Positions 46,191-62,630 of a stretch of DNA of 64,000 nt are shown in pieces (position 1 is the stretch's first letter; each line of letters begins with the position of its first letter). The translations under genes and the position numbers were made by a program. Source of the DNA: Methylobacter sp. (lineage in GTDB: Bacteria > Pseudomonadota > Gammaproteobacteria > Methylococcales > Methylomonadaceae); contig JAURZV010000031.1 in the NCBI GenBank assembly GCA_030653175.1, forward strand, positions 1 to 64,000. Reading direction: 5' to 3'. A model generated the notes under the pieces. It had not been told where the DNA came from. It saw only the letters and a list, made by a program, of their open reading frames with translations, and made no database searches.

Positions 46191-46475
46191 TAAGTAATAG
46201 GTAACCGAGGTTATAAAGATTCATTTGCTCTTTTCAATCAAACTCTCTTCGAGAGGAAAGAAGGCCGGAATGTTGTTTAATCAGCTTGGTTACCTATAAG
46301 TTAAGCCGAAAATAGTTACGGTTGAATGTCGTGGGCGCGAATTTATTCGCGCCCACAATATATACATAACCGGGGTTATAAAGATTCATTTGCTCTTTTC
46401 AATCAAATTCTCTTCGAGAGGAAAGAGGGCCGGAATGTTGTTTAATTAGCTTGGTTACCCATATTGTCGTTATAT
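46191..46475. mobile_element. Composite element: two 93-bp direct repeats around a REP
   Basis: 46202-46294 and 46367-46459 are near-identical (TAACCGAGG... to ...CTTGGTTACC), each with GGTAACC/GGTTACC ends. Between them lies the GTTAAGCCG...GTGGGCGCGAATTTATTCGCGCCCAC element. The whole is flanked by ATTGTCGTTATAT at 46178-46190 and 46463-46475, a likely 13-bp target duplication or older repeat. This fills the gap upstream of the signalling gene; no gene is seen. Confidence 0.75.
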
Positions 46476-52311: not shown

Positions 52312-52336
52312 TCCAATCACTTTCCAATACATAAAG
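52312..52336. other. attL-like site
   Basis: TCCAATCACTTTCCAATACATAAAG (read in two parts) contains the 12-bp core shared with the mnmE end. It marks the outer island boundary next to the cNMP-binding gene. Confidence 0.65.
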
Positions 52337-52456: not shown

Positions 52457-52756
52457 TTAAATAGGCTCAACATGGAGCTTAACCCCAAGCGCCTTGCAGA
52501 CTTTAGAAATGGTATCAAAGCGTGGGTGTGCGTTGGGTCGAAGTGCTTTATAAAGTGCTTCGCGTGTAAGTCCTGCTGATTTAGCAATGTCTGACATGCC
52601 CCGCGCTCTGGCAATATCGCCCAGTGCCGCTGCCAATAACGCCGAATCGCCATCATCCATAATAGCCGTTAAGTACTCTGCTATTGCTGTTTCGCTGTCC
52701 AGATAGTGTGAAGCGTCAAACTCAGGCAGGCTTGAGATTTTAATTTTATCGGTCAC
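52457..52756 (-). CDS. Addiction module antidote protein (HTH)
   Basis: 99-residue antitoxin with a helix-turn-helix: 'GMSDIAKSAGLTREALYKALRPNAHPRFDTISKVCKALGVKL' (read along the chain) is the typical antidote pattern. The N-terminal 'FDASHYLDSETAIAEYLTAIMDDGD' is also a family mark. It follows the toxin gene with a 3-bp gap, the toxin-first order of HigBA-like modules. It should bind the operon promoter and stabilise the island. Confidence 0.92.
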   Translation of the reverse strand: MTDKIKISSLPEFDASHYLDSETAIAEYLTAIMDDGDSALLAAALGDIARARGMSDIAKSAGLTREALYKALRPNAHPRFDTISKVCKALGVKLHVEPI

Positions 52757-52759
52757 GGT

Positions 52760-53056
52760 TTAATCCTCCAAAGAATCGGCCAACTGTTTGGCTTCGGCAA
52801 TATCTGCGGCCTGGGTGGACTTATCGCCGCCGCCCAACATGATAATTATTACATCGCCTCTCTGGACATAATACATACGCCAACCAGGGCCAAAGTGTTC
52901 ACGCATTTCAACTATGCCATTACCTACAGGCTTAATGTCGCCCAAGTTGCCAAGTTGGGCTTTTCTCAGTCGAGCCACCAACCGGCGCTTGGTCATGCCA
53001 TCGCGTAGACCGGAAAGCCAAGCATCGAACTTGGGTAAGGTGCGTATTGTAATCAT
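52760..53056 (-). CDS. RelE/ParE-family toxin (HigB-like)
   Basis: 98 residues: 'TIRTLPKFDAWLSGLRDGMTKRRLVARLRKAQLGNLGD' and 'VEMREHFGPGWRMYYVQRGDVIIIMLGGGDKSTQAADI' (read along the chain) match the 'addiction module killer' branch of RelE/ParE toxins. Basic residues (R..RLVARLRK, R in GWRMYY) are in the places used for mRNA or target binding. It is first in the operon with its antidote directly downstream. Confidence 0.93.
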   Translation of the reverse strand: MITIRTLPKFDAWLSGLRDGMTKRRLVARLRKAQLGNLGDIKPVGNGIVEMREHFGPGWRMYYVQRGDVIIIMLGGGDKSTQAADIAEAKQLADSLED

Positions 53057-54703: not shown

Positions 54704-56036
54704 AGCATTATCTCGATTATTGTTTTTATAACCGGCACTATGATTCTAAGCTGGTGCCGGACTGAACAGGTTGGCCTACCGGCTTAACGAAACCGGCCAG
54801 TCTTGCGACTGCCTGCCCAGCCCGACATAAAGACGCGCTGAACTGCACACAAAAAAATACCGCATGACGCGGCTATGTGCCGTTAAATTCCGAGAGGCCA
54901 ATCCCAGGCCGCCAATGTGGGCGACAGGAAAAGCTTAAATCCAATAATAACGCAGGTCAACAGTTTAATGATTTGCGCTTGTTGTTTAGTCTGTGTTCGA
55001 CAGCTCACCCAATACCTGTAAGCTTACTTACTCTCTCCCCCTGCCCCCATTCAATACGCCATAGAGTGGCGGGCAAGTATCCAGGGTCTGTGCTACGCAC
55101 GTCTGAAGATAAGCACTCAGCCAAGCCGCCTGTGTTCGTCTGAAGGCGGGTATCTGGTCAAGCTGCTGTCGATCTGTGACGGTTCGTCCGAAGGTGAGCA
55201 ATAAACATTAGCAATATATCTCCTCCCCCATGCCCCAGACAAACACGCCATAAGGTAGCGGGCAAGTGTTGACCCTGTAAGCATACAGCCGGTGCAGTCT
55301 GTGCCTTCTCTTCTCGTTGGGCTTTCTCTATTCAAAATAGAGCATATAAAAATGTTGCCCTGACGTTGGTCTAGGTATGGGCAAGGCCTAGAGATTTGAC
55401 CGCCCCCGGCCTCCTATGGCTTCGCTGGGGGTTCTGGTGGCTTGTTGCACCGCTAACGCGGCCAGGAGGGTGTACCGTTCTGCCTGCTGCCTGATGATGA
55501 CTTCATCGTCCCCGGCACACGATCAATTTAACCTTGATTCCGGTTATTGCTGGTTGCTCATTTATTGCCGCAAATAAAAACATATACCCCCCCTATGTCT
55601 GGAAAACGTGGGGAATGTGGGAAGATAGGTCTTTAGCCCACATGGGGCGTGGCTTTCAGGCTCCCCACGACCTCCCAAAGCGCGGGGATTATTCCCACAA
55701 ACACCCCTCAATATCCCCACAAAATGGCCTTTTTCGGTTTTTTTCGATCAATCGCAGGCTGCTTTTCGCTTGGTCTGGTGCTCTACGGCTCCCCATATTT
55801 GCGGGGAATGTCCCCACGAAAAACATCCATGCGGGGAGCTTGAAAGCCATGCTATATAAGGCTTATAGCTATATCTCCCCTCATTCCCCACAAAAAAATA
55901 TACATACCACCTATATATTATTTCAACCAGACCGACCACCAAAACCACGAGGCGGGCAACAAACGGCCATCACTACCTTGGTGGCGTGTCTATTTGGGGC
56001 GCGGGGACAATAACCTTAAGGCTGAAATTCCAGCCA
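54704..56036. other. Non-coding block with repeated short motifs
   Basis: No credible gene in 1.3 kb. Two diverged copies of CTC-CCCCC...CGCCATA..GT.GCGGGCAAGT lie 190 bp apart (about 55030-55080 and 55221-55270). From 55600 to 55900 TCCCCAC/GTGGGGA-type motifs recur about ten times on both strands (e.g. ACGTGGGGAATGTGGG, TATCCCCACA, ATGTCCCCACG, CATTCCCCACA). Beside a helicase-primase module such iterated sites suggest a replication or control region. Gene-like open frames here show no family features. Confidence 0.5.
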
Positions 56037-56475
56037 GGTTAAAGTTCAGCCTGAATTATGCGGATTCCGCCGCCGTGATGGCGGTAAAGAATCTCGCTTC
56101 CATATTGTCCGGTGGCAGGCGCTGTGTTGGATCAGGTTAAAGTTATGACCAGCTTGGGCGGATTCCGCCGCCGTGATGGAGGCAAAGAATCTCGCCTCCA
56201 TATTGTCCGGTGGCAGGCGCTGTGTTGGATCAGGTTAAAGTTATGACCAGCTTGGGCGGATTCCGCCGCCGTGATGGAGGCAAAGAATCTCACCTCCATA
56301 TTGTCCGGTGGCAGGCGCTGTGTTGGATTGGAATAAAGTTCAGCCTGAATTATGCGGATTCCGCCGCTGTGTTGGCGGTAAAGAAATTCAACGCCATATT
56401 GTCCGGTGGCAGGCGCTGTGTTGGTTCAGGTGAAAGTTAGGCCAGAATCATGCGATTTTCGCCGCAGTGTTGAAT
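56037..56475. repeat. 98-bp tandem array, four full copies plus a partial
   Basis: Unit starts fall at 56037, 56135, 56233, 56331 and 56429: an exact 98-bp period. Each unit has a dyad GCGGA-t-TCCGC, a hairpin (ATGGAGGC...GCCTCCAT in unit 2; TGGCG...CGCCA in unit 4) and the constant block ATATTGTCCGGTGGCAGGCG. The array ends within about 10 bp of the DUF927 helicase stop. Confidence 0.92.
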
Positions 56476-56483
56476 TCAAAAAA

Positions 56484-58466
56484 TCACCCTGACTCGATCA
56501 AATCAGCTGACAAGACCATGACGCGCTTATTTTGTCCGGCCACTATCCTTTTTACAGCTAGGCGCGGCCTGTTGCGCTCTTTATCCGGCTCGGTCTTCAC
56601 TATCAAACCCTTCTCGTACATCCGCCGCCAAAGGCTTGATGCACTTATCAAGAACGAATCACCCTGACTACGGGCGAATTGCTGAACGATCTTAAAGGCA
56701 GTGTCCTGCTGTAGCCAGACCTCGGCGGATGTGGTGCCGCTGGCATCGCAAAACCAGCCCATACAATCGCCCATAGGGCTGTAGTCTTTATTCCCTGCCA
56801 GATTAACCGCCCCTGCATCACGCCACCCCCAAGAAAACGGCCTTGAAGGTGGCGGCCCTTGATTCAGTCGGCAAGCTATATGGGCAGTCCCTGAGCTTAA
56901 CGCGGCGCGTAATAGCTGAAGGAAGCGCTCGGTTTCGTCTTGGTCGGTCTGATAAGCGCCTTGTTCGCTGAATGCCTGCCGTAACTCGGTTTCAATAGTC
57001 GATAACAGTAGGTTGCTTTGTTCGCTAGTCATCATGCCGGAATCTTCCAAGAATTCTAGGAAGGTTTCAGCACCTGCGGCCAAGTTGGCATAAATCTCTG
57101 GCGCTCTGGGGTGCGAGGATGCGAGGCCATCACGCAGGGCCGCATTGCGGAAGGTCTCAACGTTTTTAGGGAAGTCCTTTTTTATCTGGTCAAGGCGCGG
57201 CGCTAACCATTGCAGGTAAACCGACATTAACCCGGCTAGGCTTCCAGCCTGTGCGGCTTGCTGTAGTCGGGTTAATACGCTGTTATCAACATCTGCCCTG
57301 GTCAATTCCAGAATCAACAGACGACCAAGCAAGGATTGCCCGCGCGGTAAGTCCTCCGCCGTTACTAACATCAGTGACCGGTTATAAGGTGCGGACTTGG
57401 CTTGCATGGTGGAGTCACGCCTACCACGTCCGGCTTGGTTGCCGGTGTTCCTTATCAGACGTTCGGCCATCGCGTGTAATTTGGCGGCCTCGGTTTGGCT
57501 TACGCTCGGCTTGAAGTCATCCATTACGAATATTGCATCCTTGGCTTGATGACTCTTAGCCTCGGCATCGTTGACGGAATCAGACCAGTTGCCCGGAAAG
57601 CTGCGCGCGGTGAAGTTGCCGTAAAAGGCCAAGGCAATAGCGGCAATGGCGCTTTTTTTCGATCCGGTTAAGCCGTGCATCCAGATTGCAAAATCCGTGG
57701 GGTGGCATTCTCCCAACGGCGAACGGGCTACCGCTGCCAATAACGCCACGCCAATATGAGGCTTAGCCGGGCAAACATCCAGCAACGCCAGGGTATCAGC
57801 TACAGCTATTTTCAATTGTTCGCCGGTCAGTGGCGTGGGTAGTTGGTAGCGGCTCATGTGACCAGCGCCTAAATCAACCTCAACGCCATCAACTAAACCA
57901 CTGCCTGTAATCGCACCCGATCCGGTCAAATAGTGCCAGGTGTCGCCTATCTTTCTCCAGCCGGTAAATTTAAAGACGGTACGGCGCGGAATGTCACCGT
58001 CCAGCTGTGAAAACAAATGAATGGCGGCGCGTAAGTTGTCTTTTTTGGCCGCCCCTGGGTAGATAAAGGGCAGTGTTCCCCAATGCTCATTAGCCCAGCT
58101 GCCCTGCGAAGAATAGAAGCTCTTGGCCGGAACGTCGACCAAGGGCAATAGTCCACCATTAGCCTTGCGCCCTTCAACGCGCAAAAAGGTTGAATCGGTC
58201 AAACCATCCTCTTGAGTGACTTCTTCTTTAATTGAGCAGGTAAAATCACAAAGGGGGAACTCAACAACGGTATCTTCATCTTGCCCACGAACTGATTTGG
58301 TTTGGTAAAAAGCACCGTTTTTAATGAGATAAATTCCGAAGTTCTTGGTTTTACTGGAGCCATTGCCACCACTGCCCCCGTTGTTTTTATTGGGTATTAT
58401 TTTTCGTGGCGGCTTCTTAGCCGTTTCCACCAATTCCAAAACGGGGCGCTCATCTTTCTTCGTCAT
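56484..58466 (-). CDS. DUF927 family helicase-like ATPase
   Basis: 660-residue replication-type ATPase of mobile elements. The DUF927 core includes 'KNFGIYLIKNGAFYQTKSV', 'FKFTGWRKIGDTWHYLTGSGAI' and an ATPase segment with a P-loop 'WMHGLTGSKKSAIAAIALAFYG' and Walker B 'AIFVMDDFKPSV', then 'RLIRNTGNQAGRGRRDSTM' and 'LLVTAEDLPRGQSLLGRLLILEL'. A C-terminal winged-helix-like tail (SLWRRMYEKGLIVKTEPDKERNRPRL) closes it. It overlaps the primase gene by 17 bp and was probably made from one transcript with it. Expected role: unwinding at the element's origin. Confidence 0.88.
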   Translation of the reverse strand: MTKKDERPVLELVETAKKPPRKIIPNKNNGGSGGNGSSKTKNFGIYLIKNGAFYQTKSVRGQDEDTVVEFPLCDFTCSIKEEVTQEDGLTDSTFLRVEGRKANGGLLPLVDVPAKSFYSSQGSWANEHWGTLPFIYPGAAKKDNLRAAIHLFSQLDGDIPRRTVFKFTGWRKIGDTWHYLTGSGAITGSGLVDGVEVDLGAGHMSRYQLPTPLTGEQLKIAVADTLALLDVCPAKPHIGVALLAAVARSPLGECHPTDFAIWMHGLTGSKKSAIAAIALAFYGNFTARSFPGNWSDSVNDAEAKSHQAKDAIFVMDDFKPSVSQTEAAKLHAMAERLIRNTGNQAGRGRRDSTMQAKSAPYNRSLMLVTAEDLPRGQSLLGRLLILELTRADVDNSVLTRLQQAAQAGSLAGLMSVYLQWLAPRLDQIKKDFPKNVETFRNAALRDGLASSHPRAPEIYANLAAGAETFLEFLEDSGMMTSEQSNLLLSTIETELRQAFSEQGAYQTDQDETERFLQLLRAALSSGTAHIACRLNQGPPPSRPFSWGWRDAGAVNLAGNKDYSPMGDCMGWFCDASGTTSAEVWLQQDTAFKIVQQFARSQGDSFLISASSLWRRMYEKGLIVKTEPDKERNRPRLAVKRIVAGQNKRVMVLSADLIESG

Positions 58467-59397
58467 GATTCAACCCCTTTAAATAAATAGCATAATCGTT
58501 AAAATCGCCATGAATCGGCGGCACTGTGACGCTACCACCTACGGCTTGCGCCGCTTCGGTGGCTTTGGTCAGGCCGGGATTGCCGGGCGTTTGAATGTCA
58601 TTATCTGCACAGAATATAGTCTCAGCATCAGGCAGTTTTTCCCGGACGATGCCCCCGACCGCCATTAGGTTATTGGCCGTAAACGCAATATAAACGCGGT
58701 AGCCGCTTTCTTCGTGGAGTGTTGCGGCGGTAGCAAAGCCCTCTGCTATCAATACCTTTTCAGTTTTAGCCCCGATCCAGCCAAAAAGCCCGGCAATACC
58801 TGCACCTGGGAGAAAGTCTTTGTCCCTGGACAGCTCCGAGTGAGTCTCTTTAAATATCGCCTGTAAACTGCGCAAGGAGCCAGCGGAATCGAACATAGGC
58901 GCCAGCAAAACATCATCAATGATTAGTTTGTGAAATTTGCCTTGATCATCTTGAATACTTCGCTCCCAATGGCCTATCCGTAAACCGTGCGGCTTAATCT
59001 GCTTACGCACTAAGTACGGATGATCTGGCGGCGCTGGTTTGGCTGCCTGCCAGATTGCCTGCGCTTTACCTGCGGCCTTGTCTTGTTTGCGCTGCTGTTC
59101 GGCTTGACGTTGCTGCTGTTCGCGTTGAATGCGTTCGCGCTCAGCTTGCGGTAGTGGTTCGCCCGATCCGCCGCGACTGTCATTAACAAAAAAGCTCTCC
59201 CTCTGGCCGCTCTTGTGGTTCCAGACAATGCCGCCCTGACTATCTTGAAAAATCTTAATTCGGGCATCGTTTTTGCCTTTATGGTCATCGGCCAAATCGG
59301 CTACATGAAACAAACCATCAGCCTCAACATTTTTAAAAATAACGCCAATGGCTTCGCAGGCAGTACGGCAAGCATCTTCAATACTTTGCTGGCTCAT
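58450..59397 (-). CDS. TOPRIM-domain primase-like protein
   Basis: 315 residues. The N-terminal part resembles zinc-less primase/helicase leaders ('FHVADLADDHKGKNDARIKIFQDSQGGIVWNHKSGQ'), then a Gln/Arg-rich coiled region. Next comes 'DHPYLVRKQIKPHGLRIG' and a TOPRIM domain: 'KVLIAEGFATAATLHEESGY' (Glu) and 'ETIFCADNDIQTPGNPGLTKATEAA' (DxD). This is the type coded with DUF927 helicases in P4-like and integrative elements. It overlaps both neighbours (4 bp with the upstream gene), so the module is one operon. Confidence 0.88.
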   Translation of the reverse strand: MSQQSIEDACRTACEAIGVIFKNVEADGLFHVADLADDHKGKNDARIKIFQDSQGGIVWNHKSGQRESFFVNDSRGGSGEPLPQAERERIQREQQQRQAEQQRKQDKAAGKAQAIWQAAKPAPPDHPYLVRKQIKPHGLRIGHWERSIQDDQGKFHKLIIDDVLLAPMFDSAGSLRSLQAIFKETHSELSRDKDFLPGAGIAGLFGWIGAKTEKVLIAEGFATAATLHEESGYRVYIAFTANNLMAVGGIVREKLPDAETIFCADNDIQTPGNPGLTKATEAAQAVGGSVTVPPIHGDFNDYAIYLKGLNHDEER

Positions 59398-59951
59398 CTC
59401 TCACCGCCCGGCTTGTCAACACCATCAAACAAACCTATAACGTTGTTATGGTGTAAATCTTGCTCGTCACTCAAAAAATCATCAACAGTTACGAGCTCTT
59501 CAGGCGGCGCAACAGACAACTGGAAGGCCTTGATTGTTAGCTCTATTTGTTCAATTAGCTGATATAAAAACGACTTTCTATCATATTTGAATTTTTCAGA
59601 TAGGATACCGGCCAGCGTGTTGCTAGCATTTTCAATTTGAAGCGTTAACCCGTTAAATAACTTAAGCCGATCATCACAATCATCCGGTATTTTGATTCTT
59701 AGACCTTGATCAAAAATGTGAGTCAGTACCTTTACATTAAGCTCTGGATAATCTTCTGATAAAGCAACAGCTTCTATCTGTTCAAGTGTTAATTCAATTT
59801 TTTCAAACTGAAGGTGTGCAACCGGTAAAAGACTTTCGTCGTATCTTTTGGAAATAACGCCTGCCACCATATCTTCAAGCGTGGCGAATTGGAGCCATAA
59901 TTCATCAAATAATTGATTCAGTAAGGCTTGGTGAGCTGGTGAACCGATCAT
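59394..59951 (-). CDS. Island protein of unknown function (helical)
   Basis: 185 residues, mostly helical with long Leu/Glu patterns ('LLNQLFDELWLQFATLEDMVAGVISKRYD', 'FQLSVAPPEELVTVDDFLSDEQDLHH'). No motif recognised. It overlaps the primase by 4 bp and the helix-turn-helix gene by 1 bp, so it is the second gene of the replication operon and may be a loader or regulator; this is inference from position. Confidence 0.7.
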   Translation of the reverse strand: MIGSPAHQALLNQLFDELWLQFATLEDMVAGVISKRYDESLLPVAHLQFEKIELTLEQIEAVALSEDYPELNVKVLTHIFDQGLRIKIPDDCDDRLKLFNGLTLQIENASNTLAGILSEKFKYDRKSFLYQLIEQIELTIKAFQLSVAPPEELVTVDDFLSDEQDLHHNNVIGLFDGVDKPGGER

Positions 59952-60247
59952 TACACACCCGCCTTAACAACATGGTTTGCAGCTTCGGTATCAATTTCGG
60001 TGGTGGTCTTAACGCGGTTCTGTCTTAACCATTCGTCAAGCTCGGAACGGTCAAAATAAATCATCTTGCCGCGTGGTTTGAAGTGGGGGATTTGTTGCGT
60101 GGAAGTGAGTTTGTACAGATATGAGACGCTTAAGCCTGCGTAAATAGCCGCCTCATCTATGCTTAAGGTTTGTTTATTGGTTAATACTGCGTTGGTCAGA
60201 ATGTCTATTTTCGCGTTGACATCGGCCAGGGTGATAATGCTTGTCAT
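59951..60247 (-). CDS. Helix-turn-helix (excisionase/AlpA-like) protein
   Basis: 98 residues. 'LSIDEAAIYAGLSVSYLYKLTSTQQIPHFKPRGKMIYFDRSELDEWLRQNR' is the winged helix-turn-helix of MerR/Xis-like 'helix_turn_helix_17' proteins that act as excisionases or operon activators in integrative elements. It is the first gene of the HTH-unknown-primase-helicase operon, so it likely controls that operon, excision, or both. Confidence 0.9.
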   Translation of the reverse strand: MTSIITLADVNAKIDILTNAVLTNKQTLSIDEAAIYAGLSVSYLYKLTSTQQIPHFKPRGKMIYFDRSELDEWLRQNRVKTTTEIDTEAANHVVKAGV

Positions 60248-61195: not shown

Positions 61196-61235
61196 TAATT
61201 AACACTCCTTCAAGTGTTACCCTTCAAAGATAAGA

Positions 61236-61292
61236 AACCACGCCAGCCGGTTGAAGGTATCCGGTTTTTGCCCGCTAAAGCTAGGCGTGGTT
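61236..61292. terminator. Hairpin downstream of the integrase
   Basis: AACCACGCC pairs with GGCGTGGTT across 39 bases, about 20 bp past the integrase stop. A shorter inverted repeat AACACT...AGTGTT is at 61201-61218. It probably ends the integrase transcript, though the T-run is weak. Confidence 0.5.
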
Positions 61293-61312: not shown

Positions 61313-62449
61313 CTATAAGCCTATGTTCGGGATTTTATGCATAGCGTCTTTTCTAACGCTGTCGATGATGTCGGCGTAAACTTGGGTTGTTTTTACTTCA
61401 GTATGGCCCATCAATCTTGACACTGTGTAAATATCAACGCCATTACTTAATAAGCTGACTGCAAAGGTATGTCGGCCAGCATGGAAGGTTACGTGCTTGG
61501 TGATCCCCGCCGCCATAGTCCAGCGTAATAGTTCAGTGTTCATATAAGCGGAATATTTTAAAGATTGAAAAACTCGCCCCTGGTTGGCTACCTCGCTCAT
61601 CAGTTGGTAAGCCTGCGGGGTAATATCCAGATATTGCAGGTTGCCGGTTTTCTTTTGGTTAAAGGTGATCCGATAAACGCCATCGAATTGACTTACCTCA
61701 GACCAATCCAGCTTGTTAATGTCGCTCCAACGCAATCCGGTAAGGCAGGAAAATAGAAAAGCTTGTTTGAGTACATCATACCGGCAATCTGTTTTAACCA
61801 AGGCTCGGACTTCTTCAATCGTCAGATACACCCGTTCCGTTAATTCGGCCTTGATCCCCTTGACCTGTTTCAATGGGTTTTTGTTGATAATGCCTTTGGC
61901 GTATGCGTCATTTATTACGGCCCTGACTTTATTGAAATAGGATGATGCTGTGCCTTTGCTGATAAGGTTGCCGCTTTTTGTTTTGGCCTGGGTGTCGAGA
62001 TAACGCTTTACCCCTTCCAACCATTCCGGGGTTATCTGCTCAAATGTCAGGTTTTCGTCGGGATGGTGTCGCTTAAGCATGATAAGGCAACCTTGCCAGA
62101 CACTGTAATTGCTGCTGCTTTCATTGGTTTTCTTGGTCTCCATGATCTGGACGAAGAAATTGTAAAAGTTGGCGTTGATCTTGGTTGCATCGGTAAACCC
62201 ATGTTGGCCGGTGGCGGCCTCGGTTAGTCGCTTTGCTTTGATCGACTCAACTAATTGCAAGGTTTCTTTATTGTGTTGCTTTTCGGCTTTGGTTTTAGGG
62301 TTGGTGTAAAGGTATTGGTCCAGCTGTTCTAATTTGCGGTTATGTTTGGTCTTCCCTTCTGCATCAGTAAGGCTCCCATACCAATACACAAGGCGAATAC
62401 TTTGTTTATCACCCTCTTTATTGACTCGTTTCTCAATTCTTATCTTCAT
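61313..62449 (-). CDS. int: Tyrosine integrase (Bacteroidetes-type)
   Basis: 378-residue site-specific recombinase. An N-terminal arm-binding domain, then a SAM-like core-binding domain ('LTFEQITPEWLEGVKRYLDTQAK', 'SSYFNKVRAVINDAYAKGIINKNPL'), then the catalytic domain with Arg in 'FSCLTGLRWSDINKLDW', His-x-x-Arg in 'HVTFHAGRHTFAVSLL', His in 'VSRLMGHTEVKTTQVYADI' and the Tyr nucleophile in VYAD. 'FLFSCLTGLRWSDI' and 'KTTQVYA' are typical of the Bacteroidetes branch of integrases, unusual in this chromosome. It lies 160 bp from the mnmE stop and reads away from it. Confidence 0.95.
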   Translation of the reverse strand: MKIRIEKRVNKEGDKQSIRLVYWYGSLTDAEGKTKHNRKLEQLDQYLYTNPKTKAEKQHNKETLQLVESIKAKRLTEAATGQHGFTDATKINANFYNFFVQIMETKKTNESSSNYSVWQGCLIMLKRHHPDENLTFEQITPEWLEGVKRYLDTQAKTKSGNLISKGTASSYFNKVRAVINDAYAKGIINKNPLKQVKGIKAELTERVYLTIEEVRALVKTDCRYDVLKQAFLFSCLTGLRWSDINKLDWSEVSQFDGVYRITFNQKKTGNLQYLDITPQAYQLMSEVANQGRVFQSLKYSAYMNTELLRWTMAAGITKHVTFHAGRHTFAVSLLSNGVDIYTVSRLMGHTEVKTTQVYADIIDSVRKDAMHKIPNIGL

Positions 62450-62604: not shown

Positions 62605-62630
62605 CGCTTTACTTTCCAATACAAAAACTG
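62605..62630. other. attR-like site at the mnmE 3' end
   Basis: ACTTTCCAATAC at 62611-62622 lies in the last codons of mnmE (C-I-G-K-stop). It equals the core at 52319-52330. The mnmE/trmE 3' end is a known integration hotspot. Confidence 0.7.

Follow-up and report, generated by a model that had tools for sequence, protein, structure and literature searches.

A 98-bp tandem repeat array between the replicative helicase gene and the likely origin of a P4/PICI-like element in Methylobacter sp.

What is a strictly periodic array with hairpin-like arms doing directly beside a replicative helicase gene: does it serve as the origin, as a partition or incompatibility site, as a series of small structured RNAs, or does it reflect something else altogether? 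The locus lies on a contig of Methylobacter sp., of which the first 64,000 nucleotides, hereafter called the window, were analysed. An earlier note on this DNA had described four full units and a partial one in strict 98-bp register, and Tandem Repeats Finder indeed reports a period of 98 with 4.4 copies and 85% matches at 56035-56469, the units being arranged as follows:

56035..56132, repeat unit 1, mixed: columns 13-25, 48 and 51 are unit-4-like, the remainder mostly unit-2-like
56133..56230, repeat unit 2, type B
56231..56328, repeat unit 3, type B, 97/98 identical to unit 2
56329..56426, repeat unit 4, type A, 75/98 identical to unit 2
56427..56483, degenerate partial unit 5, abutting the stop codon of the helicase gene (56484-56486)

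Among themselves, units 1-4 are identical at 75-97 of 98 positions, and unit 5 matches the other units at about half (44-50 of 98). As the assembly is split into 109 contigs, the exact number of near-identical copies may be inaccurate. Self-identity of the array is 0.88 at a lag of 98 and 0.50 at lags of both 49 and 147, compared to 0.23-0.36 at the other lags examined, and the 98-bp unit therefore looks like an old dimer, making the array a dimeric higher-order repeat. Between the two halves of unit 4, the alignment GCTGTGTTGG..GGT-AAAG scores 26, which one of 2000 mononucleotide shuffles also reaches; the halves of units 1-3 reach lower scores of 16-19, the shuffle control applying to unit 4 only. 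Variation within the unit is unevenly distributed: columns 66-96 form a run of 31 columns that are invariant in units 1-4, with 24 other columns varying, and random placement of the variable columns gives such a run with a P of 0.0008 (20000 placements). This constant block could be due to selection or to gene conversion, either of which gives the same pattern. The perfect 11-bp dyad GCGGATTCCGC and the block TTGTCCGGTGGCAGGCG, both previously described as constant, are indeed invariant across units 1-4, but in unit 5 the dyad is altered to GCGATTTTCGC and the block is missing.

The array sits in a P4/PICI-like integrative element of about 10.3 kb, inserted at a gene which, by its protein sequence, we take to be mnmE-like. 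The element is bounded by att-like repeats that are 10292 bp apart. On the minus strand, the order is integrase, int-alpA RNA, a 293-aa protein, an AlpA/excisionase-like protein, a 185-aa protein, Toprim primase, helicase, the array, the origin block, C4 RNA and two small proteins, beyond which lie a serine resolvase on the plus strand and a RelE/ParE-type toxin-antitoxin pair (52457-53056). The features of the element are:

52319..52331, att-like repeat ACTTTCCAATACA (repeat family D11), far end of the element
54750..54832, minus strand, C4 antisense RNA (RF01695)
55608..55891, minus strand, predicted replication origin: two facing half-sites, GTGGGGA-like iterons, spacing close to P4 ori1
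55973..56006, minus strand, box CCCCGCGCCCCA..CGCCA..AGGTAG, between the array and the origin block
56484..58466, minus strand, replicative helicase (DUF927/Cch-like)
58450..59397, minus strand, Toprim primase
59951..60247, minus strand, AlpA/excisionase-like HTH protein
61221..61291, minus strand, int-alpA RNA (RF02996)
61313..62449, minus strand, tyrosine integrase
62611..62623, att-like repeat, integrase end, at the 3' end of the mnmE-like gene

C4 RNA is linked to P4; among related stretches it is common to 18 of the 25 scanned (6/8, 5/9 and 7/8), and of five other loci scanned it is also present in L006 and L007. Searches of nine element proteins against Pfam and PHROGs recovered none of the psu, sid, delta and epsilon families. 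Neither ParA/ParM nor ParB/ParR was recognised among the element proteins scanned, which argues against the partition site that had been proposed for the array. Elsewhere in the window, a 102-bp direct repeat (93% identical) occurs at 46197-46298 and 46362-46463, its starts 165 bp apart and with a 17-nt inverted repeat between the two copies, and the left end carries minus-strand group II intron matches (RF00029, RF02005) at 5-78 and 1646-1880.

That the array lies beside a helicase gene, as the earlier note had it, is correct, and the gene encodes the replicative helicase of a mobile element, with a likely origin adjoining as well. The implied assignment to DUF927 holds in part. The helicase itself gives no direct match to DUF927 (maximum E 10), but three of 33 aligned related proteins do (best E 5.6e-6), and its AlphaFold2 model (mean pLDDT 87, pTM 0.75) best matches the SCCmec Cch helicase (E 3e-14), followed by NrS-1 (E 3e-5) and the SaPI5 primase-helicase (E 7e-4). 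Related helicases occur in 32 of 201 family genomes at E<=1e-20, own genome included, and in two class genomes other than the own. For comparison, 37 related stretches were fetched, several partial or weaker matches being left out, which together with the window gives 38 loci. The own genome also holds a second helicase, about 40% identical, with C4 and int-alpA RNAs nearby (G000:C34:30100-31929, L076).

Past the helicase stop codon, a 6-base word recurs on both strands in many of the 38 loci, the rest showing no such block by this method; this word is TGGGGA in most, and TGGGGG, TGAGGG, TTGGGA, TGGGGC or TTGGAC in others. The block was placed in 20 loci, 19 of which have their word at seven or more sites, and the window by a template scan; two pairs among the 20, L058/L059 and L048/L049, come from the same genome. 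Three more loci (L067, L068 and L071) reach seven sites with other words, and were excluded as they barely pass or equal background. Scores in L046, L047 and L050 are below that of the best background window (4.9 versus 6.9, 3.5 versus 4.6 and 12.0 versus 12.6, respectively) and L051 barely passes background, and these four were kept because their word is common to them and the window. For half-site spacing, 20 loci were chosen and read with one exact word each, anchored on two plus-strand sites 8-10 bp apart. The left anchor is present in 17 of these loci, the exceptions being L046, L053 and the window, where the letters of the sites vary, and in 12 of the 20 a minus site follows at 52-55 after the anchor. 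In L050 the half-site runs 0+,9+,53-,74+,83-,95+, and P4 ori1, on the opposite strand, 0+,10+,53-,75+,86+,96+, such that four of the five sites after the first agree in strand and to within one base, a number reached by 14 of 200000 random layouts.

With the L050 half-site as a template, the whole 64-kb window was scanned on both strands, with up to one mismatch tolerated at each site and a slack of one base. The two best places are 55890 on the minus strand (score 4.8) and 55609 on the plus strand (3.8), the next best place scoring 2.2 and the array 0.6. In block 55608-55891 of the window, the left half contains all six template sites and the right half five of the six. The region of about 55476-56010, which holds the block, is moreover 86% identical to L006 over 537 columns. 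Judging from this layout and conservation, block 55608-55891 is the likely origin, and presumably it is these inverted iterons that the helicase binds. A PICI origin, as characterised in PMC6092414, lies directly 3' of rep and comprises two iteron sets flanking an AT-rich region; having two iteron sets 3' of the helicase gene, the block in the window fits that description in these features.

Several observations were made alongside. Origin-like blocks with differing iteron words are seen in the window (55608-55891) and in L048, L050, L056, L063, L066 and L080, and the right half-site of L063, 0+,9+,53-,70-,83+, is within one base of a P4 crr repeat (0+,9+,52-,70-,84+). A box of the form CCCCGC.CCCC..ACGCCATAAGGTAG flanks the origin block of the window on both sides and in opposite orientations, at 55973-56006 and, by eye, at about 55033-55075 and 55224-55275. 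Two patterns of this box find at least one copy in 15 of the 38 loci, and in the window the first copy only; hairpins predicted to be terminator-like are at 55966-55985 and 55246-55260.

The array itself, by its letters, does not look like the origin, although an iteron-type origin had been among the suggestions made for it. GTGGGGA within one mismatch is found 0 times in the array (1.5 in shuffles) compared to 12 times in 55608-55891, and TGGGGA within one mismatch twice (4.9 in shuffles) compared to 14 times. On its iteron content, on a template score far below that of the block, and with the conserved block next door, the array was rejected as the iteron origin. The array is furthermore absent past the helicase gene in L006 and L046, the helicases of which are 89-90% identical to that of the window, and the remaining related loci yield nothing convincing.

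What, then, do relatives carry in the same spacer? In Methylobacter tundripaludum SV96 (L006), the box and the origin block follow directly past the helicase stop codon, without an array, and in L046, which also lacks the array, the box is found 20 bases past the stop. In the window, the origin block begins about 150 bp from the array. The gap from stop codon to block exceeds 400 bp in four of the 20 loci, namely the window, L050, L051 and L065. Just past the helicase stop, the latter three have ORFs (91 aa in L050, 190 aa in L051, and 86 and 91 aa in L065), which suggests that this spot accepts inserts, the insert in the window being the repeat. Other elements have tandem arrays unrelated to ours at 0.8-2.7 kb beyond the helicase, with units of 40 bp in L050 and L065, 47 bp in L053/L054 and 39 bp in L067, from which it appears that arrays come and go here; the 40-bp units of L050 and L065 are alike. 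Over 35 loci, tandem arrays make up 5.0% of the non-ORF bases within 2.7 kb past the helicase and 0.9% elsewhere, but with four loci, window included, against three, this enrichment is not convincing.

Relatives of the unit were sought at several levels. Across the genomes of the family (201), the genus (23) and the class (369), the own genome among them, only the window's own locus gives a convincing match, with the best two or three candidates per genome considered in family and class. Blastn gave no match outside the own genome in the genus; at the same two or three candidates per genome, it returned besides the window one 32-bp match in the family (L037, E about 9e-4), at a site with no tandem array, and one 31-bp match in the class (L088, E about 9e-4). 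With a covariance model of the unit, no match in 39 related loci, a few of which overlap, falls below E 0.51; in the 201 family genomes, at the best 20 candidates per genome, it matched three other genomes at E 0.002-0.05. None of these three sites has a tandem array, and as L083 and L084, the two that were compared, are unlike, we judged the matches to be due to chance. As scoring was confined to the best two or three (blastn) or 20 (covariance model) candidates per genome, weak relatives may have escaped these searches. As far as these searches reach, no homologous arrays were found near related modules, the lack of which the earlier note had named, together with a lack of RNA or replication activity, as evidence against its own proposals. 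Within the own genome there is no convincing second copy of the unit, other matches having an E of 0.05 or worse, and a dispersed repeat family was rejected on these grounds. Plasmids yielded one 39-base match at E 0.4, the phage collection and E. coli no match to the unit, and viral contigs neither a match to two exact unit patterns nor a relative of the helicase. In the open-licence literature searched on P4 crr/ori1, int-alpA, P4-like satellites, phage satellites in Methylobacter and C4 RNA, we recognised no paper describing the array.

On the helicase-sense strand, ATG-initiated ORFs of 55 and 51 aa span the units. That small peptides of such kind would occur near C4-type prophage regions was not borne out in the protein-family, genome, phage, plasmid and viral-contig searches: the two ORFs have no family in Pfam, NCBIfam or PHROGs and no relative in the viral contigs, and they match phages and plasmids only weakly, with a best E of 0.1 and 0.4, respectively. 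Matches at E 5e-4 to 0.009 per genome were obtained in 10 of 369 class genomes other than the own and in one of 201 family genomes, a slight excess over the approximately four expected in 369 at E 0.01. A hidden small protein was nonetheless rejected and the matches judged chance, as the class and family alignments are not consistent among themselves and in several cases run through stop codons. For the family match (L107), the score of a 29-column DNA alignment is equalled by two of 300 shuffles, and there is no comparable tandem array.

The hairpins had been put forward as compensatory, with both arms changing together between copies. The arms are present as quoted, ATGGAGGC/GCCTCCAT in unit 2 and TGGCG/CGCCA in unit 4, and relative to unit 2, two pairs in unit 4 are indeed swapped for other standard pairs (A-T to C-G and C-G to T-A). 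Two further pairs in unit 4 are broken, however, as is one in unit 3, and in unit 1 the left arm has unit-4-like letters and the right arm mostly those of unit 2, resulting in one mismatch and two wobbles; the joint change is thus limited to two pairs. Over 13 pairs (arms and dyad) in the five units, none of five pairing measures stands out, with 114-190 of 500 shuffles equalling the observed values (127 for cells paired, 114 for pairs changed on both sides and 189 for the covariation score). Hence compensatory covariation does not rise above shuffles, in a test that with five copies has low power. When three bases per arm are substituted at random, 14.8% of trials retain as many pairs as are seen in unit 4. 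With the hairpin partner shifted, pairing drops to 37-66%, as against 84% in register; this indicates that hairpins exist in most copies, and not that they are selected. In RNA folding of rotated units 1-4 on both strands, z ranges from -0.46 to -2.86, with unit 4 within its shuffles; for DNA folding, z is +0.27 and -0.90 for unit 4, and -2.36 and -1.52 for unit 2.

How do these results bear on what the array might do? In an accessory cis-acting DNA site like P4 crr, the 98-bp unit or its 49-bp half would bind an element protein and thereby tune replication or incompatibility. P4 crr consists of a pair of 120-bp direct repeats that immediately follow the helicase-primase gene, at the same place and of similar length; the constant 31-bp block and the dyad look like sites, the origin block is close by, and the P4 iteron core GGTGAAC is found in the array three times with one mismatch, although never exactly (a raw count). 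The repeats of P4 crr, however, share type 1 iterons with P4 ori1, and since the array is not enriched in the iterons of the origin block, we did not file it as crr; nor do relatives with the same kind of origin have such an array. A crr-like role is therefore possible, but doubtful. The array might also be a newly evolved second cis control site at the crr place, where a protein other than the helicase would read a 49-bp binding unit that replaces the helicase's iterons, for copy number, incompatibility or timing at the origin; we consider this unlikely. If instead the array acts as RNA, either as a series of structured RNAs or as a structured 3' UTR of the helicase mRNA, it would be in keeping with the folding of units 2 and 3, which on either strand surpasses that of most shuffles (z -1.46 to -2.86), and with the C4 and int-alpA RNAs, which show that such elements use small RNAs. 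Terminator-like sites in 54.6-56.7 kb also number 7 compared to 2.2 in shuffles, one of which is inside the array on the plus strand (56404-56418). The best unit-element duplex, at -77.5 versus -76.9 for the best of six shuffled units, is marginal, and nothing is drawn from it because the control used fewer queries and still contained the array. That unit 4 folds no better than its shuffles, that covariation is not above shuffles, that Rfam gives no match inside the array even at E<=10, that related loci hold no homologues of the unit, and that the array has no promoter-like site and no terminator-like site on the helicase strand, makes an RNA function quite unlikely.

Titration of a host or helper-phage regulator by the repeated dyad, the array being a decoy or operator, would make use of the perfect 11-bp dyad in units 1-4. 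We know of no regulator for this dyad, and a search with the whole unit gave no convincing second copy in the genome, no match in the phage collection and, for two exact patterns, none in viral contigs, which renders this reading improbable. Hardly credible is a type III toxin-antitoxin RNA, the repeats of which precede a toxin gene. The repeat is tandem and partly structured, but no toxin-like gene is next to it: the plus strand leads into helicase antisense, the minus strand into the origin block, where minus-strand ORFs of at least 80 aa are lacking as far as 54703, and the recognised toxin-antitoxin pair of the element is of the protein type.

The reading that we favour, with about an even chance of being right, is that the array is not the origin but a young, lineage-specific, non-coding minisatellite, amplified in the spacer between helicase and origin. 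The two-level repeats, the array-less closest relative, the lack of unit relatives and the ORFs in the same gap elsewhere all argue for it, as do covariation that does not exceed shuffles and the absence of a folding signal in the diverged unit 4. Counted against it are the constant 31-column block, which could mean selection, and the position beside the origin together with the dyad, which would suit a binding site. The weakly founded enrichment of arrays past the helicase and the chance of missed weak relatives count on the same side. As a minisatellite, the array may have started from a sequence of about 49 bp that was inserted or arose between the helicase stop codon and the origin. This sequence would then have doubled, its halves diverging, after which replication slippage or unequal exchange could have multiplied the 98-bp dimer to 4.4 copies. 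Partial conversion between copies would account for units 2 and 3 being nearly identical and unit 1 being mixed. In this reading the array would probably be dispensable to the element.

That the iteron word varies between elements, while its spacing nearly matches that of P4 ori1, hints at a possible series of initiator-origin specificities. If the block is the binding site of the helicase, this would be a natural series for reading origin recognition by a DUF927-type initiator. Recognising that the array is without these iterons keeps the wrong minimal replicon from being drawn.

Like known minisatellites and higher-order repeats, the array combines diverged halves of about 49 bp with a 98-bp dimer that is more homogeneous; neighbouring copies can be nearly identical, one copy is mixed, and the copy at the edge is degenerate. 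Unlike them, it is placed in the spacer between a replicative helicase and a likely origin. With P4 crr (X51522, 4291-4590) it shares long direct repeats directly downstream of a replicative helicase gene, those of P4 being two 120-bp repeats between the helicase-primase gene and attP. In contrast, each crr repeat has five ori1-type iterons and the two are 60 bp apart, whereas the units in the window are not enriched in origin iterons and form four head-to-tail copies. The resemblance to P4 is closer for the origin block, of which the left half, with up to one mismatch per site, reads 0+,9+,53-,74+,83-,95+, compared to 0+,10+,53-,75+,86+,96+ for P4 ori1. Differences are that one of the six sites in the window block is on the other strand, and that the window and its relatives have two facing half-sites with the words TGGGGA, TGGGGG, TGAGGG, TTGGGA and TGGGGC, compared to TGTTCACC in P4. 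Being 3' of the rep gene, the block also resembles PICI origins (PMC6092414).

At the level of the whole element, PMC8628076 and PMC10803314 list int, an AlpA-like HTH gene and a primase gene for PICMIs, all three of which the window element has, and int, AlpA and a replication protein for P4. The definition of P4-like satellites in PMC8628076 comprises psu, delta, sid, epsilon and alpha besides int and alpA; the integrase and the AlpA-like HTH protein are present, and none of the former five was recognised among the nine element proteins. The presence of both C4 and int-alpA RNAs is a further likeness to P4-like satellites. What sets the window element apart from these satellites and from PICMIs is its split Toprim primase, its DUF927-type helicase, its attachment site at an mnmE-like gene, its resolvase and its toxin-antitoxin pair.
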